In this document: one piece after another, positions 10,733 to 38,997 of the stretch
Layout of the letters: every line of letters starts with the position of its first letter
Numbering within the stretch: the stretch's first letter is position 1
Assembly: GCA_027460585.1 (NCBI GenBank)
Contig: JAPZAP010000104.1
Location: 1-49,051 of the forward strand
DNA length: 49,051 nt
From: Candidatus Methanoperedens sp.
GTDB lineage: Archaea > Halobacteriota > Methanosarcinia > Methanosarcinales > Methanoperedenaceae
Direction: 5' to 3'
Program-made: the position numbers and the translations under genes
The notes under the pieces: generated by a model
What the model was told of the DNA's origin: nothing
Seen by the model: only the letters and a program-made list of their open reading frames with translations
Databases searched by the model: none

Positions 10733-13700
10733 ATGGTTAGTAATAAATTGTGCGGAGGGCATGCCCTCAGGATAGCGGTTGGAATAACTACGCTGGTATT
10801 GTTGATGGCGTGCGGGGCGGAGGCGCTTTCAAACAGGAATATATCGTCACAAGGTGATATTAATAATAGCTTTATTATGCATCGCCTGGATGCGGGGATA
10901 ACCTCTAATCGGGATTCAGGCATGATGTTCAGAAATGCAACCGGGGAGTTGACTTCAAAAGGATTGAAAGCTGAATCCCGCATTGGGCGCATACAAGAAA
11001 ACAAAAACCTTCATGTCAAGAGTATAGAAGAGGCGGCGGTTAGGATACCGGCATATTCAGATTGGTTCATCAACGACAATGCAACAGGCGGGGACTGCAT
11101 CTCTATTGGTACATGGAATGTTGTATCGAAGACTTGCACGCTGACAACTGACTTAACCAGAACAATAGAGATTGGTAGCGACAGCATAACCCTTGACGGC
11201 AATGGTCATACAATAACAGGAAGCAGCTCAAGTTACGGGATTTATCTTTCAGGAAGAAGTGGTGTCACGATAAAGAATACAAATGTCAGGTCCTTCTACT
11301 ACGGCATATATCTGGACCATTCCAATAACAATACACTGAGCGGTAACAATGCTTCGAACAATAGGGGAGGGGACGGCATAAATTTGTACGATTCCAATTA
11401 CAATATGCTAAGCGGCAATATTGCAAACTCGAACAACGATGACGGTATCGAATTGTACTCGTCCGGCAACAACACGCTAAGCGGCAACAAGGCGTCGAAC
11501 AATAGAGAAGGGGACGGCATATATTTGTGCGATTCCAATAACAACATGTTAAGCGGCAATAATGCGAACTCGAACAACGATGACGGCATCGAATTGTACT
11601 CGTCCGGCAACAATACGCTGAGCGGTAACAGTGCCTCGAATAACTCAAACGGCATATATCTGTACTATTCCAGCTACAACATACTCTTTAACAACACAAT
11701 GGAGGAAAATTCAATTAATTTTGGATTATTCGGATGGTCAGAGTCAGATTTTAACAACCAGATTGACTTTGGCAATACTGTAGATGGGAAGCCGGTATAT
11801 TATGTTAAAAATGGAAAGAATAATGTGTATGATTCTTCGACTAATGCAGGAACCTTCTACTGTATAAGCTGTCTAAATGTCACCATAAAAGATATAGGAT
11901 TATTAAAAAATGATGTCGGAATACTCTTCTGGAACACCACAAGTTCAAAAATACAAAACGTAACCGTTTCAAACAACGGCGACGGCATCGTTTTGTTAGA
12001 ATCCGGCAATAACACACTGAGCGGCAACAATGTTTACTCAAACGACTACGACGGCATCGAATTGTACTCGTCCGGCAGCAACACGCTAAGCGGCAACAAT
12101 GCCAACTTGAACGACTACGACGGCATATATCTGGAATCTTCCAGTTACAACACGCTAAGAGGCAACAATGCTACCTCGAACAACGACGATGGAATCGATT
12201 TGGACGATTCAAACAATAATACGATCAGCGGTAACAATGCCTCGAATAATTCCTACGGCATATATCTGTACGATTCGGGCAACAACATTCTCTTTAACAA
12301 TACAATGACAGCAAATTCATTTAATTTTGGTTTATCCGGATCGTCAGATTCAGACTTTAACAACCAGGTTGACTACAGCAATACTGTGGATGACAAGCCA
12401 ATATATTACGTTAAAAACGCAAACAATACTGTTTATGATTTTACGACCAATGCAGGAACCTTCTACTGCATAAGCTGTCTAAATGTCACCATAAAAGACA
12501 TGGAATTATCAAAAAATGAGGTCGGAATACTCTTCTGGAACACCTCCATTTCAAAAATACAAAATGTAACCGTTTCGAACAACTCTGAAGGCATCGTTTT
12601 GTTGGAGTCCGGCAACAGCACGCTGAGCAGAAACAATGCCTCGAACAACGGCGTCGGCATCGAATTGTACCTGTCCGGTAACAACACGATGAGCGACAAC
12701 AAAGTTAACTCAAACAACGACGCCGGCATCGTTTTGTTGGATTCCGGCAACAGCACGCTGAGCAGCAACAATGCTTCGAACAACTTTGACGGCATCGTTT
12801 TGTTGGATTCAAGCAAAAGCACGCTGAGCGGCAATATTGCGTCGAACAACGACGTCGGGATCGTTTTGTTACAGTCCGGCAGCAGCACGCTGAGCGGCAA
12901 CAATCTCTCAAACAGCTATGACGGCATCGTTTTGTTGGATTCCGGCAACAGCAGGCTGATCGACAACAATGCCTCGAATAACTCCTACGGCATATATCTG
13001 GAATATTCCAGCAACAACACGCTCAGCGGCAACAATGCTTCGAATAATACCTATGGAATATATATGGACTCTTCCAGCAACAACATGCTCTTTAACAACA
13101 CAATGACGGAAAATTCATTTAATTTTGGTTTATACGGATGGTCAGAGTCAGATTTTAACAACCAGATTGACTACAGCAATACGGTAGATGGTAAGCCGAT
13201 ATATTATGTTAAAAATGCAAAGAATACTGTTTATGATTCTTCGACCAATGCAGGAACCTTCTACTGCATAAGCTGTCTAAATGTCACCATAAAAGACATA
13301 GAATTACTAAGAAACGATGTCGGAATACTCTTCTGGAACACCACAAGTTCAAAAATACAAAACGTAAACGTTTCAAACAATGACGATGGCATCGTTTTGT
13401 TGGATTCCGGCAACAACATCCTGAGCGGCAACAATGTCAACTCGAACAAAGACGACGGCATATATCTGGACTCTTCCAGTAACAACACGCTAAGCGGCAA
13501 TAATGCTAACTTGAACCACGACGACGGCATGTATCTGGGCTATTCAAGCAACAACATGCTCAGAGGTAACAATGCTGACTCGAACAAAGACTTCGGCATA
13601 TACCTGGACAGTACCAGCAACAATATACTTTTTAACAACACAATGACAGAAAATTCATTCAATTTTGGTTTATATGGATGGTCAGATTCAGATTTTAATA

Positions 13701-15082
13701 ACCAGATTGACCGCACCAATACTGTAGATGGTAAGCCGATATATTACGTTAAAAATGCAATCAATACCGTTTATGATTCTTCGACAAATGCAGGAATCTT
13801 CTACTGCATAAGCTGTCTAAATGTCACCATAAAAGACATAGAGGTATTAAAAAACGATATCGGAATACTCTTCTGGAACACCACAAGTTCAAAAATACAA
13901 AACGTAACCATTTCAAACAACGACGACGGCATCGTTTTGTTGGAGTCCGGCAACAACATGCTGACTGGCAACAATATTAAATCGAACGACTATGACGGTA
14001 TATATATGGACTCTTCCAGTTACAACACGTTGAATGGCAACAATGTTAACTCGAACAACGACGCTGGCATCATTTTGTACGATTCAGGCAACAACCAAAT
14101 TTATGACAACGTATTTAACAACACTAACAATTTTTATTTAGACGAATCGGTAAGTATCTGGAACATCAAGAAAACACCGGGTACAAATATCATCGGCGGT
14201 TCATACCTGGGCGGCAACTTCTGGGCAAATCCATCTGGCACCGGCTTCAGCCAGACCTGCTCAGATGCAAATAGCGATGAGTTATGCGATTCAGAATATG
14301 TACTTGATAGTAACAATATAGATTATCTGCCGCTTTCAATGAACCTGGAAACTATAGTTCCACTGCCGATTGACCCGGCTACAGGTAAAGTAAATGCCAC
14401 GATCATCCCATTGTCAGGGAACGTATCAATAACAATTCCAAATGGAACGGTAGCCGTTGATGAAAATGGAAATTCACTGATAAATCTATCGATTGATACA
14501 AGTGTCAGTCTTACAACGAATGCTACCTTAAAATTGTCAGACAATGATGGGGTGACAGGATCTGCCATAGAGTTAAAACCCGAAGGCGCCAGGTTTGATC
14601 CGCCGATCCAGATAAGATTTAACTATTCTCATCCATTACCAGGAGGGGTCGATGAGAATAGCCTGACTGTCCGCTACTTTAACACCACTTTAAATGGTTG
14701 GGAAGTTATGCATACGGTTGAGCTTAATACGGCCCAAAATTATATAATAGCGAATATTTCCCATTTCAGTACATTTGCCCTGATTGGAACAAAACCCATA
14801 TCTGGCGGAGGAGGTGGAAGCAGCAGCGGCGGCACATACCCGCCAGGTTATGGCACCACTACAACAACGAAAACACCAGCACCAACAACGACTTCGGTGG
14901 CTACGGCAACACCGGCGTCGCAGAGTCCGGAAGTGCCCACGCAAACGGTCAAACCTGAAGTAACAGTGACAACAGCGACCCCGGCGCCAACAGCAAAATC
15001 GTCAGGTTTTGGAGCAATAATTGCTGTATTTGCAATAGCAATGATCGCCTCACTGTTAAAGAACAATAGAAATAGAAGATGA
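10733..15082 (+). CDS. Large secreted parallel beta-helix (NosD/CASH-like) surface protein with PGF-CTERM-like anchor
   Basis: 1449 residues. A signal peptide (hydrophobic stretch near residues 14-28) is followed by 'DNATGGDCISIGTWNVVSKTC..TTDL' and then about 1000 residues of right-handed beta-helix turns of the type SGNNTLSGNNASNN.DGIYL. The helix is interrupted four times by one ~100-residue module (FNFGL..W.ESDFNNQID..NTVDGKPIYYVKN .. GTFYCISCLNVTIKD .. GILFWNTTSSKIQN). A beta-sandwich-like domain spans roughly residues 1200-1350. A Gly/Ser then Thr/Pro-rich stalk leads to the tail SGFGAIIAVFAIAMIASLLKNNRNRR, a hydrophobic helix followed by Arg, close to the PGF-CTERM signal processed by archaeosortase. 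The role is probably cell-surface carbohydrate binding, adhesion or sheath structure; no catalytic residues can be named. Confidence 0.88.
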   Translation: MVSNKLCGGHALRIAVGITTLVLLMACGAEALSNRNISSQGDINNSFIMHRLDAGITSNRDSGMMFRNATGELTSKGLKAESRIGRIQENKNLHVKSIEEAAVRIPAYSDWFINDNATGGDCISIGTWNVVSKTCTLTTDLTRTIEIGSDSITLDGNGHTITGSSSSYGIYLSGRSGVTIKNTNVRSFYYGIYLDHSNNNTLSGNNASNNRGGDGINLYDSNYNMLSGNIANSNNDDGIELYSSGNNTLSGNKASNNREGDGIYLCDSNNNMLSGNNANSNNDDGIELYSSGNNTLSGNSASNNSNGIYLYYSSYNILFNNTMEENSINFGLFGWSESDFNNQIDFGNTVDGKPVYYVKNGKNNVYDSSTNAGTFYCISCLNVTIKDIGLLKNDVGILFWNTTSSKIQNVTVSNNGDGIVLLESGNNTLSGNNVYSNDYDGIELYSSGSNTLSGNNANLNDYDGIYLESSSYNTLRGNNATSNNDDGIDLDDSNNNTISGNNASNNSYGIYLYDSGNNILFNNTMTANSFNFGLSGSSDSDFNNQVDYSNTVDDKPIYYVKNANNTVYDFTTNAGTFYCISCLNVTIKDMELSKNEVGILFWNTSISKIQNVTVSNNSEGIVLLESGNSTLSRNNASNNGVGIELYLSGNNTMSDNKVNSNNDAGIVLLDSGNSTLSSNNASNNFDGIVLLDSSKSTLSGNIASNNDVGIVLLQSGSSTLSGNNLSNSYDGIVLLDSGNSRLIDNNASNNSYGIYLEYSSNNTLSGNNASNNTYGIYMDSSSNNMLFNNTMTENSFNFGLYGWSESDFNNQIDYSNTVDGKPIYYVKNAKNTVYDSSTNAGTFYCISCLNVTIKDIELLRNDVGILFWNTTSSKIQNVNVSNNDDGIVLLDSGNNILSGNNVNSNKDDGIYLDSSSNNTLSGNNANLNHDDGMYLGYSSNNMLRGNNADSNKDFGIYLDSTSNNILFNNTMTENSFNFGLYGWSDSDFNNQIDRTNTVDGKPIYYVKNAINTVYDSSTNAGIFYCISCLNVTIKDIEVLKNDIGILFWNTTSSKIQNVTISNNDDGIVLLESGNNMLTGNNIKSNDYDGIYMDSSSYNTLNGNNVNSNNDAGIILYDSGNNQIYDNVFNNTNNFYLDESVSIWNIKKTPGTNIIGGSYLGGNFWANPSGTGFSQTCSDANSDELCDSEYVLDSNNIDYLPLSMNLETIVPLPIDPATGKVNATIIPLSGNVSITIPNGTVAVDENGNSLINLSIDTSVSLTTNATLKLSDNDGVTGSAIELKPEGARFDPPIQIRFNYSHPLPGGVDENSLTVRYFNTTLNGWEVMHTVELNTAQNYIIANISHFSTFALIGTKPISGGGGGSSSGGTYPPGYGTTTTTKTPAPTTTSVATATPASQSPEVPTQTVKPEVTVTTATPAPTAKSSGFGAIIAVFAIAMIASLLKNNRNRR
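11680..13945 (+). repeat. Four copies of a ~300-bp module inside the beta-helix gene
   Basis: Near-identical blocks begin at about 11685, 12285, 13085 and 13625. Each runs from 'ctctttaacaa.acaatg' through the shared phrase 'GTFYCISCLNVTIKD' to 'aaaatacaaaa.gtaac'. Both DNA and protein are strongly conserved, while the short helix turns between them vary. This points to recent duplication or gene conversion. Each copy has two cysteines (CISC) that could form a disulfide. Confidence 0.8.
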
Positions 15083-15106: not shown

Positions 15107-15591
15107 AGTAATTATATAACAACACCTTTAAGCTTGAATATGTTAAAAAATCATCAAAAACCGATGCAGTAGCAGTAATTATGTTTATCGCACCTGATTG
15201 AATGGATATTACCTGACATTAAGGATTTAAAAGGCTGCAAAATCTTGTTTTTTATGAGGAATCATCGAGGATATTTATTAAGGAAGAATCACATATAAAA
15301 TCATCATGTTTCCAAATAATTCTCCCGTTGTCCAATTTCCCCCAAGAATGGCGTTGAGGAGGATGCACCCTGAGCCCTGAAAGGAGTTCTATTCAAAATA
15401 TAGTCAAGAACCTAATTTATTTCACAAAATGCCAAACACTTTGCGCTCTTTGCGTCCTTTGCGGTGCACGATTTTTTTCACCGCAAAGATCGCAAAGGAC
15501 GCAAAGATAGTTTGAATTGTTTGGTATTCAACTATAAATCTGAAAAACAGAGAAAAACAACAAAAAAAATACTAAAAAAGACACGAATTTT
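15107..15591. other. Intergenic region with a possible tiny ORF and a dispersed palindrome
   Basis: This 485-base gap has no recognised gene. A 24-codon frame at 15306-15380 (begins MFPNNSPVVQ, ends RRMHPEP) has an AT-rich TATA-like stretch about 30 bases upstream. It is too short to support by itself. The right part holds the inverted repeat at 15439-15508. Confidence 0.4.
15439..15508. repeat. Dispersed inverted repeat, CACCGCAAAG family
   Basis: CTTTGCGxxCTTTGCG...GCGGTG is mirrored by CACCGCAAAGATCGCAAAGGACGC. The core unit CGCAAAG occurs at roughly 8-9-base spacing. Related copies lie at 16271-16343 and 30600-30628. It sits only in intergenic DNA here. Confidence 0.65.
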
Positions 15592-29198: not shown

Positions 29199-30245
29199 AT
29201 GAAAGTGTTAAAAAAAGAACTGCGTTTCAATGAAGGTGAGATATCACTCATGATGGAATCGCTGGATGACCTCTGGCACCTGAAATACATCCTTGAACCG
29301 CAAGACTTGGTTTATTCAGTAACAAAACGCAGGACAGAAGGAGCTACTGATAAATTAAGACCCGAAAAAGCAGATAAGAAAACAATGCGCCTTGGTATAT
29401 TGGTCGAGAAGGTGGAATTTCATAAGTTTTCAAACCGACTTCGTGTACATGGCACCATCGCTGATGGGATCGACACCGGCGCATACCATACCCTGAATAT
29501 CGAGGAGGGCACTGATATTTCTATAATTAAGAAATGGAAGAATGACCAGTTAGAAAGAGTAAAAGAAGCCCAGATCGCATCAAAGCGCCCGAAGGTGATA
29601 ATCGCAACGATAGAAGAGGGAGAAGCTTCAATAGGAATGGTGCGGCAGTTCGGGGTAGAGGAATCATCATCACTGAGGCAGTCACTTGGAAAAGGGGAAG
29701 GAAATAACAGGAATGAATTCTTTGGGGAACTTGCATCACAATTAAAATGGGCAGCTGAAAAAGTGGATGCTGTCATAATCGCAGGTCCGGGATTTACAAA
29801 AGAAGATTTTCTTGAATTCATACGAACAAGAGAGCCGGAACTCACAAAAAAGGCTGTTCTTGAAGATACGACATCAATAGGCGTATCAGGATTCCAGGAA
29901 GTTTTGAGGCGCGGGGCAGTAGATCGGATAATGGAAGAATCAAGGATCGGAAGAGAAGCAAAACTTATCGAGGAATTGATGAAAGAGATATCTATGAACG
30001 GGAAAGTATCCTATGGCATGGCAGATGTCAGGAATGCCCAGTCTCTTGGCGCGATTCACACTCTTTTGATAGCTGACGAACTGCTCCGCACCGAGCGTGA
30101 AGACAACTCCATCGATGCTTTTTTAAAAGACGTGGAGCATTCACAGGGAAAAATAGTAGTATTTAGCACAGAGTTTGAGCCTGGAAAGAAACTTGAATCA
30201 CTTGGAGGCATAGCCGCCCTTTTGCGTTTCAGGGTGAATCCATGA
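29199..30245 (+). CDS. pelA: Pelota (aPelota, Dom34) ribosome rescue factor
   Basis: 348 residues with the three Pelota domains: an Sm-like N-terminal domain to about 130 (MKVLKKELRFNEGEISLMMESLDDLWHLKYI), the central eRF1_2-like domain ('IIATIEEGEASIGMVRQFGVEE' and 'VIIAGPGFTKEDF'), and the C-terminal eRF1_3-like domain ('GAIHTLLIADELLR'). It lacks the GGQ motif, as expected for Pelota. ATG 29199 is the conserved start. It works with ABCE1, encoded about 5 kb upstream, in splitting stalled ribosomes. Confidence 0.95.
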   Translation: MKVLKKELRFNEGEISLMMESLDDLWHLKYILEPQDLVYSVTKRRTEGATDKLRPEKADKKTMRLGILVEKVEFHKFSNRLRVHGTIADGIDTGAYHTLNIEEGTDISIIKKWKNDQLERVKEAQIASKRPKVIIATIEEGEASIGMVRQFGVEESSSLRQSLGKGEGNNRNEFFGELASQLKWAAEKVDAVIIAGPGFTKEDFLEFIRTREPELTKKAVLEDTTSIGVSGFQEVLRRGAVDRIMEESRIGREAKLIEELMKEISMNGKVSYGMADVRNAQSLGAIHTLLIADELLRTEREDNSIDAFLKDVEHSQGKIVVFSTEFEPGKKLESLGGIAALLRFRVNP

Positions 30246-30599
30246 GCTTTGATGATATCCACATTGCTCAATGCCTGAATTACTTCCAACATCAAATAAA
30301 ACAAAACAACCGCAAATTATTCGGACAAATATCTGCGTTTATCATGCCGAAACCCTGCGGGTTCTCGACTCCGCGCACACGTATGCCTGCGGGCATACTG
30401 CGCAGCGATATCCACGTATGGCAACAGCCATACTTGTGTGCGACGTCAACTGGCGCAACGGTTGACGTGGGACACGCCCTCCAGAGGCGTGACTCTGGGC
30501 GCTATCATCTGCGGCTAATATTCGTTTCATTGAGCGATAGAACCCAGAAAATTCAATATAAACTATTCCCTATAACTAATGAAAATGGTGTGACTAAAT

Positions 30600-30628
30600 C
30601 ACCGCAAAGTACGCAAAGAGCGCAAAAC
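30600..30628. repeat. CACCGCAAAG-family repeat, single arm
   Basis: CACCGCAAAGTACGCAAAGAGCGCAAA matches one arm of the palindromes at 15439 and 16271. No opposing arm is seen nearby. Confidence 0.55.
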
Positions 30629-30677
30629 TCAACGATACCTGCTACGACGTATGAAAAGGCAGCAGTATCACGATTCA

Positions 30678-30742
30678 GAACACGGATGACGCGGATCGCG
30701 CGGATTTTCACGGATCCGTTTGCATCCGCACAATCCGTGTTC
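30678..30742. repeat. Inverted repeat with perfect 10-bp ends
   Basis: GAACACGGAT at 30678-30687 is mirrored by ATCCGTGTTC at 30733-30742, with further GCGGAT/ATCCGC pairing inside. It ends 24 bases before the next gene and belongs with the ACACGGAT-type element at 44358. Confidence 0.6.
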
Positions 30743-30765
30743 CTTCCCGCGATCAGGACGGCAGT

Positions 30766-31638
30766 ATGAAAAAGATCGGCATCTCCATGACAGATTCAAC
30801 TGATTGGACATGTGTTGCCTTATGTAATTCCATCCGGCAATCCGGGATGGAACCAATAATATTCAGCCTGGGGGATGCGACATCGAACATCGCATCGGGC
30901 AGGTTATATTCAGGGAATATCGATCTTACAATCCTTGATGCCATTGTAGTGAGAGACCTTGGGCCAGCAACAAAGAATGATGTCTCTTTCAGGTTTGATA
31001 TCCTGTGCCAGCTTGAAGAGCTTGGAATAGCGGTCATCAATTCACCGGATTCAATAGCAAAAGCTGCCAATAAGTATGTTTCAAGTTACATCTTCCGTAA
31101 AAATGGCATTACTACGCCCAGGACTGTCGTGACGAATTGCCTTGATGAAGCGCTTTTTGCATTGGCATCATTTGGCACAAGCGTGACGAAACCGGTTTTT
31201 GGGTATAAAGGGATTGGCGTTGAATGTTTAATGAATAATAAGTCAGGGATATTAAGACTCAAGAAATTAATGGAAAAGAACGGCCTGGTATATATACAAG
31301 AATTCATTGTTAATCCCGGAAGAGACATAAGAGTATTTATTGTGAATAATAAAGTCGTGGGATCGATATACAGGATAGCTCCAGAAGGGTGCTGGATCAA
31401 TAACCTGAGCCAGGGCGGAACTGCAAAATCCTGCAAATTAACCGATGAACAGGAGAATTTGAGCCTTAAAGCTTCGAAAGTTATCGGAACAACATATGCG
31501 GGCGTAGATATCATTGAAGGGGACAGGCCTTATGTTATTGAGATCAATGGAACGCCTTCGGGTAAAGGTATATTTGAGGCGACAGGAGTGGATGTTACGG
31601 TTGGAATCGCTGAATATTTGTTGGATCTGGTCACATAA
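30766..31638 (+). CDS. RimK-like ATP-grasp ligase, possibly tetrahydromethanopterin:glutamate ligase (MptN-type)
   Basis: 290 residues of the RimK/MptN/CofF ATP-grasp family. Visible parts are the preATP-grasp fold (to about 95), the ATP-grasp region 'VTKPVFGYKGIGV', 'YIQEFI..PGRDIRVFIVNNKVVGSIYRIAP', the 'NLSQGGTAK' loop and the metal-binding 'GVDIIE....YVIEINGTPSG'. Sarcinapterin-using archaea need such a ligase to add glutamate to tetrahydromethanopterin, so MptN is a fair guess. RimK-type protein modification or CofF cannot be excluded from sequence alone. It is monocistronic. Confidence 0.75.
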   Translation: MKKIGISMTDSTDWTCVALCNSIRQSGMEPIIFSLGDATSNIASGRLYSGNIDLTILDAIVVRDLGPATKNDVSFRFDILCQLEELGIAVINSPDSIAKAANKYVSSYIFRKNGITTPRTVVTNCLDEALFALASFGTSVTKPVFGYKGIGVECLMNNKSGILRLKKLMEKNGLVYIQEFIVNPGRDIRVFIVNNKVVGSIYRIAPEGCWINNLSQGGTAKSCKLTDEQENLSLKASKVIGTTYAGVDIIEGDRPYVIEINGTPSGKGIFEATGVDVTVGIAEYLLDLVT

Positions 31639-31769: not shown

Positions 31770-31991
31770 TGTTGTTCAATTATACCGAAAATTATATACG
31801 TGGTCAATCCATGATAATAAATTACAATAACTAGATTTATTGTAATCCGGGATAGAAATGTCATGATTGGAAGTTCGGATATTAAAAATGTAGGATAACT
31901 TTGCCGAATTTTATTTTCATGAGTTACATGAAATCAATACGGAGATAGAATAAAACATAGATAGAAAAAACGGAGATAGAATAAAACGGAG
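31770..31991 (+). promoter_or_regulatory. Promoter and long leader of cytochrome cassette 1
   Basis: This region is repeated almost word for word at 35442-35628. A TATA box (AATTATATAC near 31790-31799) is followed by the palindrome at 31822-31845. Downstream conserved pieces are 'TAATCCGGGATAGAA', 'ACTTTGCCGAATTTTATTTT' and TTCATG-N5-CATGAA (about 31917-31933). The leader would be about 170 bases long. Conservation outside coding DNA suggests regulatory content or a recent duplication. Confidence 0.6.
31822..31845. promoter_or_regulatory. Candidate operator, cassette 1
   Basis: TTACAATAA-N6-TTATTGTAA is a perfect 9-bp inverted repeat with spacer CTAGAT. It lies about 27 bases after the TATA box, where transcription should start. 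The same palindrome is at 35496-35517. Confidence 0.55.
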
Positions 31992-34664
31992 ATGAAAATT
32001 TTGAAAAACAGAATTCTATTAGGAATAGGAATATTAATAATACTGCTAGCGCTGGCAGGAACAGGAAGCGCAAAAAGTGCTTACTCAGCAGCAGGAGCGG
32101 ATTGCGGCGTCTGTCATACGAGTATTGTTGATGGCAATTACACGTTAACAGCTGAAGGAAGCTATTTCAGGGACGTTCATAAATTCAACGGCAATACAGT
32201 ACCATCAAGCGCAAGCAGCTGTTTGACATGTCATCCTGACCTGACTTCATTCCTGCCGCTTACATCGGTTGGTTCATCATATAATCAAACTCACAGGTAT
32301 AATGCAGCCACACTGGCAGCTAAAATGTTACCAGTGCCCGGATGTGCGAACTGCCATGTGAATGCCATTGGTAACAATTTTAGTTTCATTACAGGCGCTC
32401 CAACATACCTGACATCTTCGGTATGCCAGGATTGCCACCCGGCGAAGTACAATAACTGGGCGAACACAACGCATGCTCATATGTTAACGCCAGCGGCTAA
32501 AGCCCAGACAATGGGACTTCCAACCCCGCCTGGTTATTCCTGGTCGGACATATCATATGTACTAGTAACCAAATTCCAATTGTCATATATCAACGCAACT
32601 GGATATTGGCTTGCCCAGAATAATACTTATAATACCGAAACACAGGCATGGGCAAATGGTGAAACTGCTGGTGGCAAATACACTTGTGCATCATGTCATA
32701 CAACTGGCTATAGTGCAACTGGTGTTAATAGCTTACCAGGCATTACCGGAACCTTTACAGAAACAGGAATTGCATGTGAGAGATGTCATGGACCGGCAGG
32801 CAACGGGCATCAGGTAACTGTTAATTATTCTGGAACTTTATGTACAGAATGCCATAGCGGTTCCCATCATGGAACTGGCTGGGAAAACAGTGCTCATGCG
32901 CCACCTGCACTTCAAAACCGTACATCCTGTACGAAATGTCATTCGCCGTTTGATAATTATCTAAATAATACTCCGACATTAGCAAAAGCTACAGATGTGT
33001 CGTGCGGTGTGTGCCACAATACACATGATATAACTGATATGAAATACGCAGATACATTCTCAAAAGGTATTTTCAATCAAACAGCCTGGTCTAAGCCTGC
33101 AAATGCAAAGTTAAGTTTCTTCAATGCAACTGCTTCAATTGCAGCGAAAACCGATGTCTTCGATGATCTGGCAATCCAGGTCCTGATAATACCTGGTAGC
33201 AGCTCACTTTTAGGCCCAATGAATCTTACAGGCAAGCCTGTTTCAGAAGTGCTGTGCTCCAAGTGCCATTTCAATCATGGATTAGACCATATGAAAGGGG
33301 TTCCACTGAGCCATGGCAAACCGGGTGAATGGGCAACTTGCACAGACTGTCATATGAGTGGAGCTAATGCAACTGTAGGTAGAGATATGATGGCGAACCA
33401 TGCGATGAATCCAAAGACATCATCGTCCTGTCTCCCTTGCCATAAGACTAATCCAGCAATAATCAGAGAGTGGACTGCAACCGCACACAACGACAAACAG
33501 GTAGCTGTAGGTACAGGCGGCCTCGGGCCTAACCATTTCTATGGTACTCTCAACACAACCACAGGCATCGCAAATGCACAACCAAATATGTGTCTCAAAT
33601 GCAAGGATCCGATGCACTTTAACCCTGCTATAGCGGAAAATGTAACTACCAAAATAAACCTGACTGATAGCTTCAGGGGTATTACATGTGCTGTTTGCCA
33701 TAACATCCACGACATGGCTGACTGGCTCAACAATACCAAAGCGGTTTACGGAGTGTCAAAGCCCTATGCTTGGTATAATGTTACTACAAAGAACTACACC
33801 ATGATGGCCAACACAACAGAGTTATGCGGCCACTGCCATGTGAATACCAGATATGGCAATACAGGCCCAGGCTGGGTAGCTGGTGCAGCCAACCCAATAG
33901 GGGCGCATGGTCTCCCCGCAGCGGACATGTTTGAAGGCTCATGGAAGCAGACAGGCTTTTTGAAATTTGAGTGCACCAGTTGTCATTTTGCAAAACAGAC
34001 AAGAAATTTCACGACTGGGGCAAGTTTGACAGCCGACGAGAGGATTGGAGGTCACTCATTCAAAGTGAACACGACTATATTGATGAACGGCACAGCATGT
34101 TCAAGCTGCCATGTAACAGGAAGCACACTTGGTAATCTGAGCTACACGATTAATAAAGTGAAGACAGATACTCAGGCTAAGTGGAATACCACCAACGCAA
34201 CAGTAATGGCTGCATTGGCAACCGTTAAGGCATATACCGGTGAGAAGAGTATGAGCCGTGATCAGATTGCTCAAGCATATTGGAACATCAAATTGTTTAC
34301 TTCAGGAGGAGCAACGAGCTGGGGTGTACATAATCCGACCAAAGCAAATGATCTCCTGGATCAAGCATCAGCACTGGCGACCTCTGCCGTTCAAAATCTT
34401 GGTGTGGCCAGCAGTTCAAGTGTGCAATTATATGCAGGCTGGAACCTTGTGTCGCTAAATGCAACACCGGCAAGTACATCACCAATATCTGTGATGTCTT
34501 CGGTATCGAGCAACTTGACTATTGTCTGGGGTCTGAATGCTGCGACCCAAACATGGGTAATGTATAACCCGGCAAGACCTGTCGATATGAATACATTGAC
34601 AAGTATGGCCAAGGGTGTAAGCTATGAGATAAAAGTAGCAAATAATTGTATGTGGACGGTTTAA
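31992..34664 (+). CDS. Secreted multiheme c-type cytochrome with 16 CxxCH and one CxxCK site (cassette 1)
   Basis: 890 residues. The signal peptide ends at 'GTGSAKSAYS' (about residue 28). Sixteen CxxCH motifs can be counted, from CGVCH near residue 39 to CSSCH near residue 705. A seventeenth site is CLKCK (C534-C537, Lys538), the motif type of the catalytic haem in NrfA nitrite reductase. The early part resembles cytochrome c554-like proteins ('VCQDCHPAKYNNWANTTHAHML', 'GIACERCHGPAGNGHQ'). The last ~80 residues form a haem-free domain ('GWNLVSLNATPASTSPISV..VWGLNAATQTW'). The start is drawn at ATG 31992, but GGAGATGA placed 5 bases before TTG 32001 may mark the true start. A likely extracellular electron carrier or reductase. 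Confidence 0.93.
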   Translation: MKILKNRILLGIGILIILLALAGTGSAKSAYSAAGADCGVCHTSIVDGNYTLTAEGSYFRDVHKFNGNTVPSSASSCLTCHPDLTSFLPLTSVGSSYNQTHRYNAATLAAKMLPVPGCANCHVNAIGNNFSFITGAPTYLTSSVCQDCHPAKYNNWANTTHAHMLTPAAKAQTMGLPTPPGYSWSDISYVLVTKFQLSYINATGYWLAQNNTYNTETQAWANGETAGGKYTCASCHTTGYSATGVNSLPGITGTFTETGIACERCHGPAGNGHQVTVNYSGTLCTECHSGSHHGTGWENSAHAPPALQNRTSCTKCHSPFDNYLNNTPTLAKATDVSCGVCHNTHDITDMKYADTFSKGIFNQTAWSKPANAKLSFFNATASIAAKTDVFDDLAIQVLIIPGSSSLLGPMNLTGKPVSEVLCSKCHFNHGLDHMKGVPLSHGKPGEWATCTDCHMSGANATVGRDMMANHAMNPKTSSSCLPCHKTNPAIIREWTATAHNDKQVAVGTGGLGPNHFYGTLNTTTGIANAQPNMCLKCKDPMHFNPAIAENVTTKINLTDSFRGITCAVCHNIHDMADWLNNTKAVYGVSKPYAWYNVTTKNYTMMANTTELCGHCHVNTRYGNTGPGWVAGAANPIGAHGLPAADMFEGSWKQTGFLKFECTSCHFAKQTRNFTTGASLTADERIGGHSFKVNTTILMNGTACSSCHVTGSTLGNLSYTINKVKTDTQAKWNTTNATVMAALATVKAYTGEKSMSRDQIAQAYWNIKLFTSGGATSWGVHNPTKANDLLDQASALATSAVQNLGVASSSSVQLYAGWNLVSLNATPASTSPISVMSSVSSNLTIVWGLNAATQTWVMYNPARPVDMNTLTSMAKGVSYEIKVANNCMWTV

Positions 34665-34683
34665 TGACCGTCCATTTTTTTTT
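34654..34683 (+). terminator. Stop-codon hairpin with T-run after cytochrome 1
   Basis: GGACGGT (34654-34660) pairs with ACCGTCC (34667-34673). The TAA stop is in the six-base loop and nine T follow. The next gene starts only 12 bases later, so this can act as a partial terminator that sets the ratio of the two products. An identical hairpin is at 38306. Confidence 0.7.
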
Positions 34684-34694
34684 GGAGTGATCTC

Positions 34695-35324
34695 ATGAAA
34701 AAAAATATATTATTCGTTTTACTTTTGCTTTTTATCCCACTTGCCCAGGCAGTACCGCCTGTGACATCATACTGGGGTACTGTGACATTAGATGGTTTAA
34801 CAATACCAAATGCTGCAGTAACCGTCGTTGATTCCTCAGGTAATACAGTTGCAAGTGCAACTACTGACTCAAGCTCTCGATATTCGGTCGTTGTGCCATG
34901 GGCTGATTCATACACTTCGAGTGTTTCATTGACATTCAAAGTTAATGGGTATACAGCAACCTCAACGACAATAGGCGCTCAGGGCGACGATATAAATCTT
35001 AACCTTGCAGCAAGCAGCAGCAGTGGCGGAAGCAGCGGTGGAGGCGGCGGTGGAAGCAGCAGCGGTGGAACCTACCCCTCTGGCTCTACCAGCTCGGGAG
35101 GAGCAGCACAAGCAACTTCGAGTGCAGTAAAGACATCTACAGCTACACCAGTGCCTGCGACTACTGAAGTACCGGTCACTACAACGGCCAAACCTGTAGT
35201 TACAGAAACAACAAAACCGAGTTCAGCGTCTTCAGCAAAATCGCCAGGGTTTGAAGCAATAATCGCTGTATTTGCAATAGCAATGATTGCTTCACTGTTA
35301 AAGAACAATAGATTTAGAAGATGA
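34695..35324 (+). CDS. CnaB/carboxypeptidase-regulatory-like surface protein with PGF-CTERM anchor (cassette 1)
   Basis: 209 residues. The signal peptide (MKKNILFVLLLLFIPLAQA) is followed by one ~80-residue beta-sandwich domain of the carboxypeptidase-regulatory/CnaB kind ('GTVTLDGLTIPNAAVTVVDSSGNTVASATTDSSSRYSVVVPWADS'). A Gly/Ser stretch and a Thr/Pro stalk, probably glycosylated, precede the tail 'SPGFEAIIAVFAIAMIASLL' plus KNNRFRR, a clear PGF-CTERM archaeosortase signal. The ribosome-binding site GGAGTGAT sits 4 bases before ATG. Placed right after the cytochrome, it may anchor or organise it at the cell surface. Confidence 0.85.
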   Translation: MKKNILFVLLLLFIPLAQAVPPVTSYWGTVTLDGLTIPNAAVTVVDSSGNTVASATTDSSSRYSVVVPWADSYTSSVSLTFKVNGYTATSTTIGAQGDDINLNLAASSSSGGSSGGGGGGSSSGGTYPSGSTSSGGAAQATSSAVKTSTATPVPATTEVPVTTTAKPVVTETTKPSSASSAKSPGFEAIIAVFAIAMIASLLKNNRFRR

Positions 35325-35348
35325 TTTAGATCATCTTCTCTTTTTTTT
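35316..35348 (+). terminator. Hairpin terminator overlapping the stop codon
   Basis: AGAAGATGAT (35316-35325, with the TGA stop) pairs with ATCATCTTCT (35330-35339), then C and eight T. It ends cassette 1. Confidence 0.75.
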
Positions 35349-35441
35349 ATTCGACGTAAATTTACAATTGAAATCTACTTGCTTTCATTGATATTAGTGT
35401 TCTGATATAATCTATTATCTATCATATAAAGATTGAATGAA

Positions 35442-35628
35442 TGTTGTTCAATTAAAACCGAAAATTATATATGTAGTCAATCCTTCATAAACACTACAAT
35501 AACTAGATTTATTGTAATCCGGGATAGAATAATCGTGAAGAAATTCGGATAATGAAAAACGGGAGAACTTTGCCGAATTTTATTTTCATGAATTACATGA
35601 AATCGATAGGAGATAGTATACTAAGGAG
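35442..35628 (+). promoter_or_regulatory. Promoter and leader of cytochrome cassette 2
   Basis: Duplicate of the region at 31770-31991: TATA box AATTATATATG near 35464-35474, the palindrome at 35496, the 'ACTTTGCCGAATTTTATTTT' block and TTCATG-N5-CATGAA. It is slightly shorter, because a repeated 'ggagatagaata' stretch before the gene is not expanded here. The presence of its own promoter indicates that cassette 2 can be expressed independently. Confidence 0.6.
35496..35517. promoter_or_regulatory. Candidate operator, cassette 2
   Basis: TACAATAA-N6-TTATTGTA, an 8-bp perfect inverted repeat with the same CTAGAT spacer as in cassette 1. It sits at the predicted transcription start. Confidence 0.55.
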
Positions 35629-38316
35629 ATGAAAAATGTGAAAAAAAGATTTGTATTAGGAATAGGAATTTTAATTTTACTGCTGGCGCTGGCAGGAACA
35701 GGAAGCGCGAAAAGTGCTTACTCGGGAGCAGATTGCGGCGTCTGTCATGTAAGCATTGTGGGTGGCGATTATACATTAACATCTGATGGAAGCTATTTCA
35801 GGGATGTTCATAAATTCAACGGAAATACAGTCCCTTCAAGTGCAAGCAGCTGTCTGACATGTCATCCTGACATGACTTCATTCCTGCCGCTTACATCGGT
35901 TGGTTCATCATATAATCAAACTCACAGGTATAATGCAACCACGCTGGCAGCTAAAATGTTACCAGTGCCCGGTTGTGCGAACTGCCATGTGAATGCCGTT
36001 GCTAACAATTTTAGTTTCATTACAGGTACTCCAACATACCTGACATCTTCTGTATGCCAGGATTGCCATAAACCAAAATATGACAATTGGACCAATACAT
36101 TGCATCGTGTAATGTTAACGCCGAAGGATAAAGCCCAGGCAATGGGACTTCCAACTCCTCCAGGTGGCTGGGCGGGCATATCCTATGTAGTTGTATCCAA
36201 ATTCGCATTTGCATATATCAACACAACTGGATATTTCCTTGCTACGAATGATACATATAATACTGAAACTGAAGAGTTTGAAAATGGTCATGCAGGCGCA
36301 GCGTACGGCACCTGTGGAAGATGCCATACTACTGGCTGGGATACGAGCAGTAAACTCTTACCAGGCTTTGCCGGAACCTTTGCCGAGCCGGGAATTGGCT
36401 GTGAGAGATGTCATAAACCAGGAGGCAACGGGCATCAGGTAGTTGTGAATTATTCCGGAACTTTATGTACTGAATGCCACACTGGTGGAAATCATGGAAC
36501 AGGCTGGGAAAACAGCGAACATGCGCCACCTCCATATGAGATCGGCAGCAGTTGTATGTTCTGTCATTCCTCGTTTGATCAATATAAAAATCAGAATGCG
36601 AGTTTTGCTAACGCGACAGGCGTATCGTGCGGAGTATGTCACAATATCCATGATATGACAGATAGCAAATATGCGGCAACATTCTCGCAAGGCACCTTCA
36701 ATCCAACAACATGGTCAAAGGTCGCAGATTCGAAATTAGCTTTCTTCAATGCAACTGCTTCACTAGCAGCAGGCACAGATGTTTTCGATAACCTTTCCAC
36801 AATAACCTCGTTATATCCTGGAACGATTTCCGACAGGAAAGATGCAAGCTATGGTACAGCGCCAATAAATCTCACAGGTCGTCCTGTATCAGAAGTACTG
36901 TGCTCAGAGTGCCATTACAGGCATGGGATAGCCCATATTGCAGGGGTTAACCTGACACATGGCGCCCCAAGTCGGAAAGCAACCTGCACAGACTGCCACA
37001 TGAGTGGATATAATGCTGCGGTGGGTAAAGATTTGATGAAGAATCATGCGATGGACCCACTGACACCAACATCCTGCAAGTGCCACTCGTCGGTACCTGC
37101 ATTAATTAAAGAATGGAACAGAAGCGTACATAACGATAAAGTAGTTGGATTAAGTGGCGGTGCTAACCATTTCTTTGGTACTCTCAACAAAACCACAGGC
37201 GTCGCTAGTGCACAACCAAATTCCTGCCTCAAATGCAAGGATCCGATGAACTGGAACCCTGCTATAGCAGAAAATGTAACTACCAAAGTAAACCTGACTG
37301 ATAGCTTCAAGGGTATTACATGTGCGGTTTGCCATAACATCCACGACATGGGTGACTGGCTCGCCAAGACAAAAGCGATGTTCGGAGCTTCAAAGCCCTA
37401 TGCATGGTATAATAAGGATGCAATTTTGACCGGAACCCGGTTCAAAGCAAACTACACCATAGAGGAATCAACAACAGAGCTATGCGGCAACTGTCATTCG
37501 AATATCAGATATGGCAGTACAGGCCCGGGCTGGGCAAGTGCTACTGCAACTTCCCCAATAAAGCCACACGGATTCCCGGCAAAGGACTTGTTCGTTGGCT
37601 CGTGGAAGGAGACGGGCTTGTTGAAATTTGAGTGTGTCGATTGTCATTTTGCAAAAATGAGCAGAGACGCGAATGGGACAAGTCTGCCTGCCGACAAGAG
37701 GGTAGTAGGTCACTCATTTAAAGTGAACACTACTATACTGATGAACGGCACAAAATGTTCAAGCTGCCATGTAACCGGAAGCGAACTGGGCAACCTGAGC
37801 ACCACGATCGAGGATGTACAGGACGAAACCCACGCTAAGTGGAACAGCACAAACGCAATCGTTTCAGGCGCATTGGCAAATTATAATGCATATAACGGTA
37901 CGAAGAACTTCAGCCGTACATTGATTGCCCAGGCGTACTGGAATGTACAATGGGTGTCATCAGATGAAAGCTGGGGTGTACATAATCCATCCAAAGTAAA
38001 TGATCTTCTGGATCAAGCTGTAGCACTGGCGATATCTTCGAACCAGTCTCTTGGCATGGCCGGCAGTTCAAATGTGCAATTATATAAAGGTTGGAACCTT
38101 GTGTCGTTAAACGCAACACCAGCAAGTACATCACCAATATCGGTAATGTCTTCGGTATCGGGCAATTTGAATATTGTCTGGGGCCTGAATGCTGCAACCC
38201 AAACATGGGTAATGTATAACCCGGCAAGACCTGCCGATATGAATACCTTGACGAGTATGGTCAAGGGTGTAAGCTATGAGATAAAAGTAGCGAATAATTG
38301 TATATGGACGGTTTAA
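35629..38316 (+). CDS. Secreted multiheme c-type cytochrome with 15 CxxCH, one CxCH and one CxxCK site (cassette 2)
   Basis: 895 residues, a close paralogue of the cytochrome at 31992 along its whole length. It has the same signal peptide, the same order of haem sites and the same haem-free C-terminal domain. Fifteen CxxCH motifs are intact. The site equal to CLPCH of the paralogue is CKCH (C483, C485, H486), one residue shorter and perhaps not haem-binding. CLKCK is kept (C533-C536, Lys537). The middle region (about residues 370-430) differs most. ATG 35629 is drawn, but GGAGATGA 5 bases before GTG 35638 suggests that start. Probably extracellular, with electron-transfer or reductase function. 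Confidence 0.93.
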   Translation: MKNVKKRFVLGIGILILLLALAGTGSAKSAYSGADCGVCHVSIVGGDYTLTSDGSYFRDVHKFNGNTVPSSASSCLTCHPDMTSFLPLTSVGSSYNQTHRYNATTLAAKMLPVPGCANCHVNAVANNFSFITGTPTYLTSSVCQDCHKPKYDNWTNTLHRVMLTPKDKAQAMGLPTPPGGWAGISYVVVSKFAFAYINTTGYFLATNDTYNTETEEFENGHAGAAYGTCGRCHTTGWDTSSKLLPGFAGTFAEPGIGCERCHKPGGNGHQVVVNYSGTLCTECHTGGNHGTGWENSEHAPPPYEIGSSCMFCHSSFDQYKNQNASFANATGVSCGVCHNIHDMTDSKYAATFSQGTFNPTTWSKVADSKLAFFNATASLAAGTDVFDNLSTITSLYPGTISDRKDASYGTAPINLTGRPVSEVLCSECHYRHGIAHIAGVNLTHGAPSRKATCTDCHMSGYNAAVGKDLMKNHAMDPLTPTSCKCHSSVPALIKEWNRSVHNDKVVGLSGGANHFFGTLNKTTGVASAQPNSCLKCKDPMNWNPAIAENVTTKVNLTDSFKGITCAVCHNIHDMGDWLAKTKAMFGASKPYAWYNKDAILTGTRFKANYTIEESTTELCGNCHSNIRYGSTGPGWASATATSPIKPHGFPAKDLFVGSWKETGLLKFECVDCHFAKMSRDANGTSLPADKRVVGHSFKVNTTILMNGTKCSSCHVTGSELGNLSTTIEDVQDETHAKWNSTNAIVSGALANYNAYNGTKNFSRTLIAQAYWNVQWVSSDESWGVHNPSKVNDLLDQAVALAISSNQSLGMAGSSNVQLYKGWNLVSLNATPASTSPISVMSSVSGNLNIVWGLNAATQTWVMYNPARPADMNTLTSMVKGVSYEIKVANNCIWTV

Positions 38317-38335
38317 TGACCGTCCATTTTTTTTT
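38306..38335 (+). terminator. Stop-codon hairpin with T-run after cytochrome 2
   Basis: GGACGGT-TTAATG-ACCGTCC followed by nine T, identical to the element at 34654. It stands 11 bases before the next start codon. Confidence 0.7.
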
Positions 38336-38346
38336 GGAGTGAACTC

Positions 38347-38973
38347 ATGAAAAAAAATATATTATTTGTTTTACTTTTGCTTTTTATCCCACTTGCCCAG
38401 GCAGTACCGCCTGTGACATCATACTGGGGTACTGTGACATTAGATGGTTTAACAATACCAAATGCTGCAGTAACCGTCGTTGATTCTTCAGGCAATACAG
38501 TGGCCACTGCAACAACTGATTCGAGCTCTCGATATTCGGTCGTTGTGCCATGGGCTGATTCATACACTTCGAGTGTATCATTGACATTCAAAGTTAATGG
38601 GTATATAGCAACCACAGCGACAATAGGCGCTCAGGGGGATGATATAAATCTTAACCTTGCAGCAAGCAGCAGCAGTGGCGGAAGCAGCGGTGGAGGCGGC
38701 GGTGGGAGCAGCAGCGGTGGAACCTACCCATCTGGCTATTCCAACACGGGAGGAGCAGCACAAGCAACCACAGTACAGACATCTACAGCTACACCGGTGG
38801 GTGGGAAAACCGAAGTACCGACCACAACGGCCACACCTGTAGTAACAGAAACAACAACGGCTACAACAAAACCGACTTCAGCGCCATCAACTCCAGCGTT
38901 TGAAGCAATAATCGCTGTATTTGCAATAGCAATGATTGCTTCAGTGTTAAAGAACAATAGATATAGAAGATGA
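38347..38973 (+). CDS. CnaB/carboxypeptidase-regulatory-like surface protein with PGF-CTERM-like anchor (cassette 2)
   Basis: 208 residues, nearly identical to the protein at 34695 up to about residue 130. The stalk then differs in Thr/Pro content. The tail reads 'TPAFEAIIAVFAIAMIASVL' plus KNNRYRR, so the PGF of the paralogue is PAF here; whether archaeosortase still accepts it is unknown. GGAGTGA precedes ATG 38347. It completes the duplicated cassette. Confidence 0.84.
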   Translation: MKKNILFVLLLLFIPLAQAVPPVTSYWGTVTLDGLTIPNAAVTVVDSSGNTVATATTDSSSRYSVVVPWADSYTSSVSLTFKVNGYIATTATIGAQGDDINLNLAASSSSGGSSGGGGGGSSSGGTYPSGYSNTGGAAQATTVQTSTATPVGGKTEVPTTTATPVVTETTTATTKPTSAPSTPAFEAIIAVFAIAMIASVLKNNRYRR

Positions 38974-38997
38974 GTTAGATCATCTTCTTCTTTTTTT
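38965..38997 (+). terminator. Hairpin terminator overlapping the stop codon
   Basis: AGAAGATGA (38965-38973) pairs with TCATCTTCT (38980-38988), then TC and seven T. It is the third copy of this terminator type in the window. Confidence 0.75.

Follow-up and report, generated by a model that had tools for sequence, protein, structure and literature searches.

Paired multihaem cytochrome and surface-protein genes in Candidatus Methanoperedens: a tandem duplication and a C-terminal domain that goes with the partner gene

The stretch of DNA analysed here (the window; 49,051 nucleotides, contig JAPZAP010000104.1 of Candidatus Methanoperedens sp., assembly GCA_027460585.1) contains two direct tandem units, A and B, at ~31.8–39.0 kb, each pairing a gene for a multihaem cytochrome (cytA, cytB) with one for a small surface protein (surfA, surfB), referred to as the partner. 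The order in each unit is promoter and leader, cytochrome gene, a hairpin at its stop codon, surface-protein gene and terminator hairpin, with exactly 30 nucleotides (nt) between the cytochrome and surface genes in both units. A preliminary description made from the letters alone had reported two direct-order units with a common promoter and palindrome, a stop-codon hairpin and a terminator, all of which is borne out, and a unit size of ~3.57 kb, which is corrected here to a start-to-start distance of 3.63–3.67 kb. The features are as follows.

31785–31800 (+): B recognition element (BRE)/TATA, archaeal promoter-like, of unit A (CCGAAAATTATATAC); predicted from sequence, kept in unit B
31822–31845 (+): palindrome A, TTACAATAA-CTAGAT-TTATTGTAA, close to the predicted start of transcription; both units, and only these, have it exactly; fold z −3.6
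31992–34664 (+): cytA, secreted multihaem cytochrome with 16 CXXCH and 1 CXXCK; probable true start TTG 32001
34428–34661 (+): C-terminal GW domain of cytA (see below; about residues 813–890), the proposed docking tag; profile A1, E 1.2e-37; no Pfam/NCBIfam match
34652–34675 (+): hairpin spanning the cytA stop codon, T-run up to 34684; stem search and folding
34695–35324 (+): surfA, partner, with signal peptide, CnaB/TTR-like N-domain at about residues 20–105, Gly/Ser/Thr linker and PGF-CTERM-like tail
35316–35350 (+): hairpin spanning the surfA stop codon plus T-run, closing surfA; stem search and folding
35495–35516 (+): palindrome B, TACAATAA-CTAGAT-TTATTGTA; exact in both units only
35629–38316 (+): cytB, secreted multihaem cytochrome with 15 CXXCH and 1 CXXCK; probable true start GTG 35638
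38080–38313 (+): C-terminal GW domain of cytB; profile A1, E 3.3e-37
38304–38327 (+): hairpin spanning the cytB stop codon, T-run up to 38336; stem search and folding
38347–38973 (+): surfB, partner; PAF replaces PGF in the tail motif
38965–38997 (+): hairpin spanning the surfB stop codon plus T-run, closing surfB; stem search and folding

Aligned segment by segment, the two units are 87% identical in the promoter and leader, 79% (nucleotide) and 72% (amino acid) in the cytochromes, 97% in the intergenic junction hairpin and 93% in the surface gene (87–90% between the surface proteins), and identity falls to 59% upstream of the units. An assembly duplicate is ruled out because the copies differ by 28% in protein. 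Translation probably starts at TTG 32001 in cytA and GTG 35638 in cytB, behind GGAGATGA and three codons past the listed ATGs. The palindrome (TACAATAA-N6-TTATTGTA) is found nowhere else in this assembly and is a candidate operator or 5′ stem-loop; a role as the operator of a wider regulon is rejected, as further close copies are not above control level. An Rfam search gave chance-level matches only.

Among the genomes examined the tandem double copy is present only in this one, and cytA and cytB are each other's closest relatives in a tree of the haem bodies, built without the GW domain. Over the whole cytochrome bodies synonymous divergence (dS) is 0.50 and nonsynonymous divergence (dN) 0.195, with the partner and the GW ending little changed; the strongest constraint falls in residues 1–70 of the surface protein (dN 0.006) and the last 65 residues of the cytochrome (dN 0.034). 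Synonymous divergence is uneven, at 0.6–0.9 across much of the haem body, 0.14–0.24 in three cytochrome patches (residues 76–150, 526–600 and 826–890) and 0.15 in the surface gene, which we read as gene conversion, mostly towards the unit ends, while the haem bodies drifted apart. Retention of both copies had been put down to dosage or to divergent redox roles, and either may apply.

About 17 haem sites had been assigned to each cytochrome. This fits cytA, with 16 CXXCH motifs and one CLKCK, and not cytB, which has 15 plus CLKCK, one site having decayed to CKCH. The CLKCK site (window 33591–33605 and 37225–37239; residue 534 of cytA and 533 of cytB) is CXKCH in all aligned relatives. A lysine at a haem site is reminiscent of the catalytic haem of the nitrite reductase NrfA, and the lysine here recalls such a haem or may reflect an altered axial ligand. 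Pfam domains in the two proteins are Cytochrome_C7, MtrC/MtrF II–IV and C554-type, with PF22113 (MtrC/MtrF domains II/IV) scoring 63 and 56 bits in cytA and cytB (cut-off 30). Compared with solved structures the cytA sequence matches only 6i5b and a nitrite reductase, nanowire cytochromes of the OmcZ/OmcS type being unmatched, and no relative of the cytochrome was found in viral contigs. As to attachment, no lipobox cysteine is seen by eye at either signal peptide, a Pfam/NCBIfam scan gives no S-layer domain match in cytA or cytB, and beyond the signal peptide none of the cytochromes examined is hydrophobic over a segment that could form a membrane helix.

Each window protein was searched against 60 related genomes and the neighbourhoods of the matches were read. 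The same cytochrome/partner pair is present in eleven other Methanoperedens genomes, with the partner 30–33 nt downstream of the cytochrome in nine and 70 nt upstream in two (G015 and G024), and a pair of like layout lies in a genome of another family (L192 in G079; bin contamination 3%). Every paired cytochrome ends in a domain of ~80 residues with an invariant GWN and a near-terminal W (the GW domain, profile A1), which no Pfam or NCBIfam model matches and for which a PDB search with the profile gave no convincing relative. Running the profile on 31 genomes of the genus locates 27 places with GW domains, 13 in cytochromes and 14 in others, and 22 of the 27 are paired. All 13 single-GW cytochromes of the genus have an adjacent same-strand partner, as does that of G079 (14/14; 12 downstream at 30–33 nt, 2 upstream). 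The 14 other places mostly encode two GW domains, with few or no haems; a partner adjoins nine of them, a decayed one is left at L105, and four have none, two of these being weak matches. The L105 remnant (positions 1–485, downstream of the double-GW gene) is a fragmented type II partner. Among cytochromes of the same family without the GW ending, the partner is adjacent in none of seven complete cases, three more being cut by contig ends.

On the haem-body tree the paired state requires three changes, at least two of them forced by well-supported branches, and the window cytochromes fall among GW-less, unpaired forms; this tree contradicts the idea of a partner tied to the haem body. Since the paired state changes repeatedly on it, the GW ending and the partner have evidently been gained or lost together, and partner presence tracks the GW ending rather than the haem body. 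The pairing had been taken as fixed, and it does recur in related genomes, at 14/14 GW-ending cytochromes. The accompanying suggestion that the surface protein is a dedicated partner or anchor is well supported genomically, because of this adjacency and because its presence follows the GW ending; binding and anchoring themselves are what we infer from these patterns.

Beyond the genus, G031 and G037, the latter a closed genome of another family, also encode double-GW proteins next to a PGF-pre-PGF protein. At locus L194 (G054:C85), in another family of the order, four or more double-GW surface proteins are encoded in tandem without partners. A further pair of another type is present at L111 (1875–7128), where the gene for a PGF-pre-PGF protein of 359 residues starts 10 nt after that of a 29-haem cytochrome lacking a terminal GW domain, and in G009 a MarR-type regulator resembling the redox sensors RrpA/RrpB (L085:2979–3329) lies downstream of an unpaired cytochrome homologue.

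Partners in the relatives are 340–375 residues long and comprise a signal peptide, the N-domain, a Ser/Gly linker, a PGF-pre-PGF domain (TIGR04213; 131–152 bits in those scanned), a second linker, a C-terminal helix and a basic tail. TIGR04213 has no match in surfA or surfB, and the PGF-pre-PGF domain has been lost in the window partners and, independently, in one partner of a double-GW protein (G005); the N-domain is retained in both. A C-terminal membrane helix is present in 22/22 partners, preceded by PGF, PGL or SGF in most cytochrome-side partners and plain in the partners of double-GW proteins and of G015 and G024, and Archaeosortase A (TIGR04125) is encoded in 31/31 genomes (E 1.3e-74 in G000). 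Because the cytochromes lack a helix while all 22 partners have one and the archaeosortase is in every genome, the partner would supply the missing anchor. The PGF-CTERM label given earlier to the surface proteins may suit surfA, whose tail reads SPGF-hydrophobic-RR (PGF motif, helix, basic tail) and scores 18.2 bits with PF18204, just under the cut-off of 18.8; surfB has PAF and is unmatched by PF18204.

The N-domain had been called CnaB-like. By sequence the surfA/surfB domain matches CarboxypepD_reg at 1.2e-5, below the cut-off; the label agrees with a model of a full-length relative's partner (L113:9743–10816, model m56d5522efdfd, mean pLDDT 71.5), which Foldseek matches to CnaB2 8bdw (TMt 0.57, E 0.014, ~100 columns). 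The same model unexpectedly resembles the GAIN domains of the adhesion G-protein-coupled receptors BAI3 and CD97 (probability 1.0, E ~0.001), and we take this portion to be the PGF-pre-PGF domain. Its end motif FSPFAI recalls the GPS motif, a catalytic histidine not being evident. A PDB search with the partner profile gave no convincing relative, the matches looking like Gly/Ser linkers. Elsewhere in the window, a 1449-residue parallel beta-helix (NosD-like) surface protein (10733–15082) has a tail and Gly/Ser/Thr linker like those of the partner (60% identical across 95 residues), and a stop-codon-spanning hairpin closes its gene as well, which suggests a cassette of tail and terminator common to both.

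The N-domain occurs in two types that follow the client, one with single-GW cytochromes and one with double-GW proteins. N-domains of one type are 61% identical, against 20% across types, and this holds inside single genomes too; for the PGF-pre-PGF domain of the same proteins identity is 54–57% within a type and 46% between. As it is the N-domain and not PGF-pre-PGF that varies with client type, the pattern is that expected of an adaptor whose head is specific to the client and whose stalk is shared, and these comparisons point to a conserved, type-matched module with clients beyond cytochromes. In G021 an orphan double-GW cytochrome (L083) and an orphan type II partner (L090) lie at separate loci and could serve each other in trans. 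The partner might instead be an independent adhesin or S-layer component whose position next to the cytochrome serves nothing but co-regulation within a cluster of surface genes: PGF-pre-PGF proteins are common, with matches in 30/31 genomes, and several relatives have genes for large surface proteins upstream. We consider this quite improbable, as it leaves unexplained both the partner's tracking of the GW ending through repeated gains and losses and the change of the N-domain alone with client type.

The hairpins spanning the cytochrome stop codons in the window have folding energies of −15.9 and −15.6 kcal/mol (z = −4.7), which no shuffle equals. Because stem registers differ between species, the hairpin was assessed by its frequency relative to other genes rather than by position-wise covariation. 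Among 401 gene ends in the loci studied, a stop-codon-spanning stem with a T-run is present at 22, 20 of which belong to the cytochrome and partner genes described here (13/15 without duplicate loci). Hairpin and T-run occur at 16/20 GW-partner junctions versus 4/158 other close same-strand junctions (Fisher p 9e-16, descriptive only, as the rows are related), and two of those four are partner-to-22-haem junctions. In double-GW genes the hairpin sits just past the stop codon. Since the genes are only ~30 nt apart, read-through is the simplest way for the partner to be expressed, and the hairpin probably causes partial termination after the cytochrome, yielding more cytochrome than anchor. Alternatively, it is the plain 3′ end of the cytochrome mRNA and sets no ratio, the partner having its own promoter inside the cytochrome gene. 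A like hairpin indeed closes the cytochrome gene in G015 and G024, where the cytochrome comes last, and the surface genes close with similar hairpins; however, a T-run terminator before a co-directional gene is rare elsewhere (4/158) yet standard at GW-partner junctions, and a promoter would not fit in the 30-nt gap. We regard the plain 3′ end as a possible but somewhat doubtful explanation and prefer partial termination.

A 22-haem S-layer cytochrome adjoins the pair in 8 of the 12 genomes where this can be judged; in the window genome it is encoded away from the pair, at C39. Those scanned have a C-terminal helix and PF07752/TIGR01567 S-layer matches, with one CXXCH (residue 749–771) lying between the S-layer segments. 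Multihaem cytochromes (MHC) of type A in anaerobic methanotrophic archaea (ANME) are defined by an S-layer domain, one haem motif in the S-layer linker and a C-terminal helix (PMC9012536), a definition that the neighbouring 22-haem protein fits. In Ca. M. manganicus a 22-haem/S-layer cytochrome was strongly expressed with manganese (PMC7082337), and in Ca. M. nitroreducens an extracellular 16-haem cytochrome is up 38-fold on iron, top among the extracellular ones (Zhang et al. 2023; PMC10542353). The Ca. M. nitroreducens genome holds the pair with a 16-haem cytochrome (L117), which may be the iron-induced gene; a tie of the pair to Methanoperedens_00214 is a lead. PGF-pre-PGF domains have been counted, and cytochromes carrying their own sorting signals noted (Timmers et al. 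2017; PMC5244752); our literature searches found no published description of the cytochrome/partner pair. Upstream of the units, the open reading frame (ORF) at 30242–30769 is probably no gene, because it contains dispersed-repeat-like DNA (30601–30725; ACCGCAAAGTACGCAAAGAGCGCAAA; ACGGATGACGCGGATCGCGCGGATTTTCACGGAT), with related matches at 15448–15497.

We propose that the two genes of each unit form a module for electron transfer at the cell surface. The 16-haem cytochrome would be secreted with no anchor of its own and would carry the GW domain at its C-terminus as a docking tag; the CnaB/TTR-like N-domain of the adaptor would bind this tag, and the adaptor's C-terminal helix, of PGF-CTERM/archaeosortase type or plain transmembrane, would hold the adaptor on the outside of the cytoplasmic membrane. 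In this way the cytochrome would be tethered between membrane and S-layer and could pass electrons towards the S-layer-spanning cytochrome encoded beside the pair in most relatives. Hairpin and T-run would end part of the transcripts after the cytochrome, leaving cytochrome in excess over anchor. The unit was duplicated in this genome, the cytochrome bodies diverging while tag and adaptor stayed alike. Docking of the tag by the N-domain, with tethering outside the membrane near the S-layer conduit, is the reading we favour, with some confidence. We would give about even chances to a wider scheme of modular archaeal surface docking, in which GW tags (one in 16-haem cytochromes, two in non-haem proteins) meet membrane-held adaptors with swappable N-domains and a common PGF-pre-PGF stalk of GAIN-like fold, used in Methanoperedens for loading cytochromes under the S-layer conduit.

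The obligate pairing and type matching are also predicted if the partner is a membrane-held maturation or assembly helper that aids folding, haem loading or export of GW-ending proteins and then releases them, the cytochrome ending up free or in filaments. The inclusion of non-haem clients makes a general export or folding role possible, and the hairpin suggests a partner less abundant than its client. Against this, the helix, linker and overall layout are those of anchored surface proteins, and a released cytochrome would have no hold beside its linked S-layer conduit; we think such a helper unlikely. Docking and tethering, the reading we keep, has several observations weighing against it. 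The double-GW cytochromes L082 and L083 have no neighbouring partner, GW-like proteins in most other distant archaeal genomes lack one, and operon co-inheritance alone could produce the type matching. The surfB tail lacks the canonical PGF, and an AlphaFold2 model of cytA (10 sequences; pLDDT 37.8) is unusable.

As to how ANME hold their many extracellular cytochromes between membrane and S-layer, the examples in the papers considered here are cytochromes fused to S-layer domains or with their own sorting signal (PMC9012536, PMC5244752). A separate, client-specific anchor, if true, would explain how unanchored 16-haem cytochromes stay beside the S-layer conduit, and the pair suggests a previously undescribed way of fixing electron-transfer proteins to the cell surface. 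It also offers a directly testable interaction between two domains of ~80–90 residues each.

Several known systems resemble the pair in part. Like the ANME MHC types A and B with S-layer domains (PMC9012536), cytA and cytB are large extracellular multihaem cytochromes of the same organisms, and a type-A-like 22-haem neighbour is present in 8 genomes; they differ in having neither S-layer domain nor C-terminal helix, the anchor being a separate protein. MtrC/OmcA surface cytochromes and OmcZ/OmcS nanowires are likewise extracellular and multihaem, and PF22113 is above cut-off in both window proteins, whereas these show no lipobox and find no nanowire cytochrome among their sequence matches to solved structures. 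The relatives' partners belong with the PGF-CTERM/archaeosortase A and PGF-pre-PGF proteins (TIGR04213) by their signal peptide, linker, PGF-pre-PGF domain, helix and basic tail. They are set apart from that class by a client-specific N-domain and a fixed gene neighbour; the window copies also lack PGF-pre-PGF, and several members have a plain helix without PGF. Cohesin and dockerin have no Pfam match in the window cytochromes and partners. The cohesin–dockerin system is alike in its proposed working, with a secreted protein tagged at its C-terminus and a type-specific receptor domain held at the surface, and the pair described here differs from it in having one adaptor per client, the two encoded side by side.

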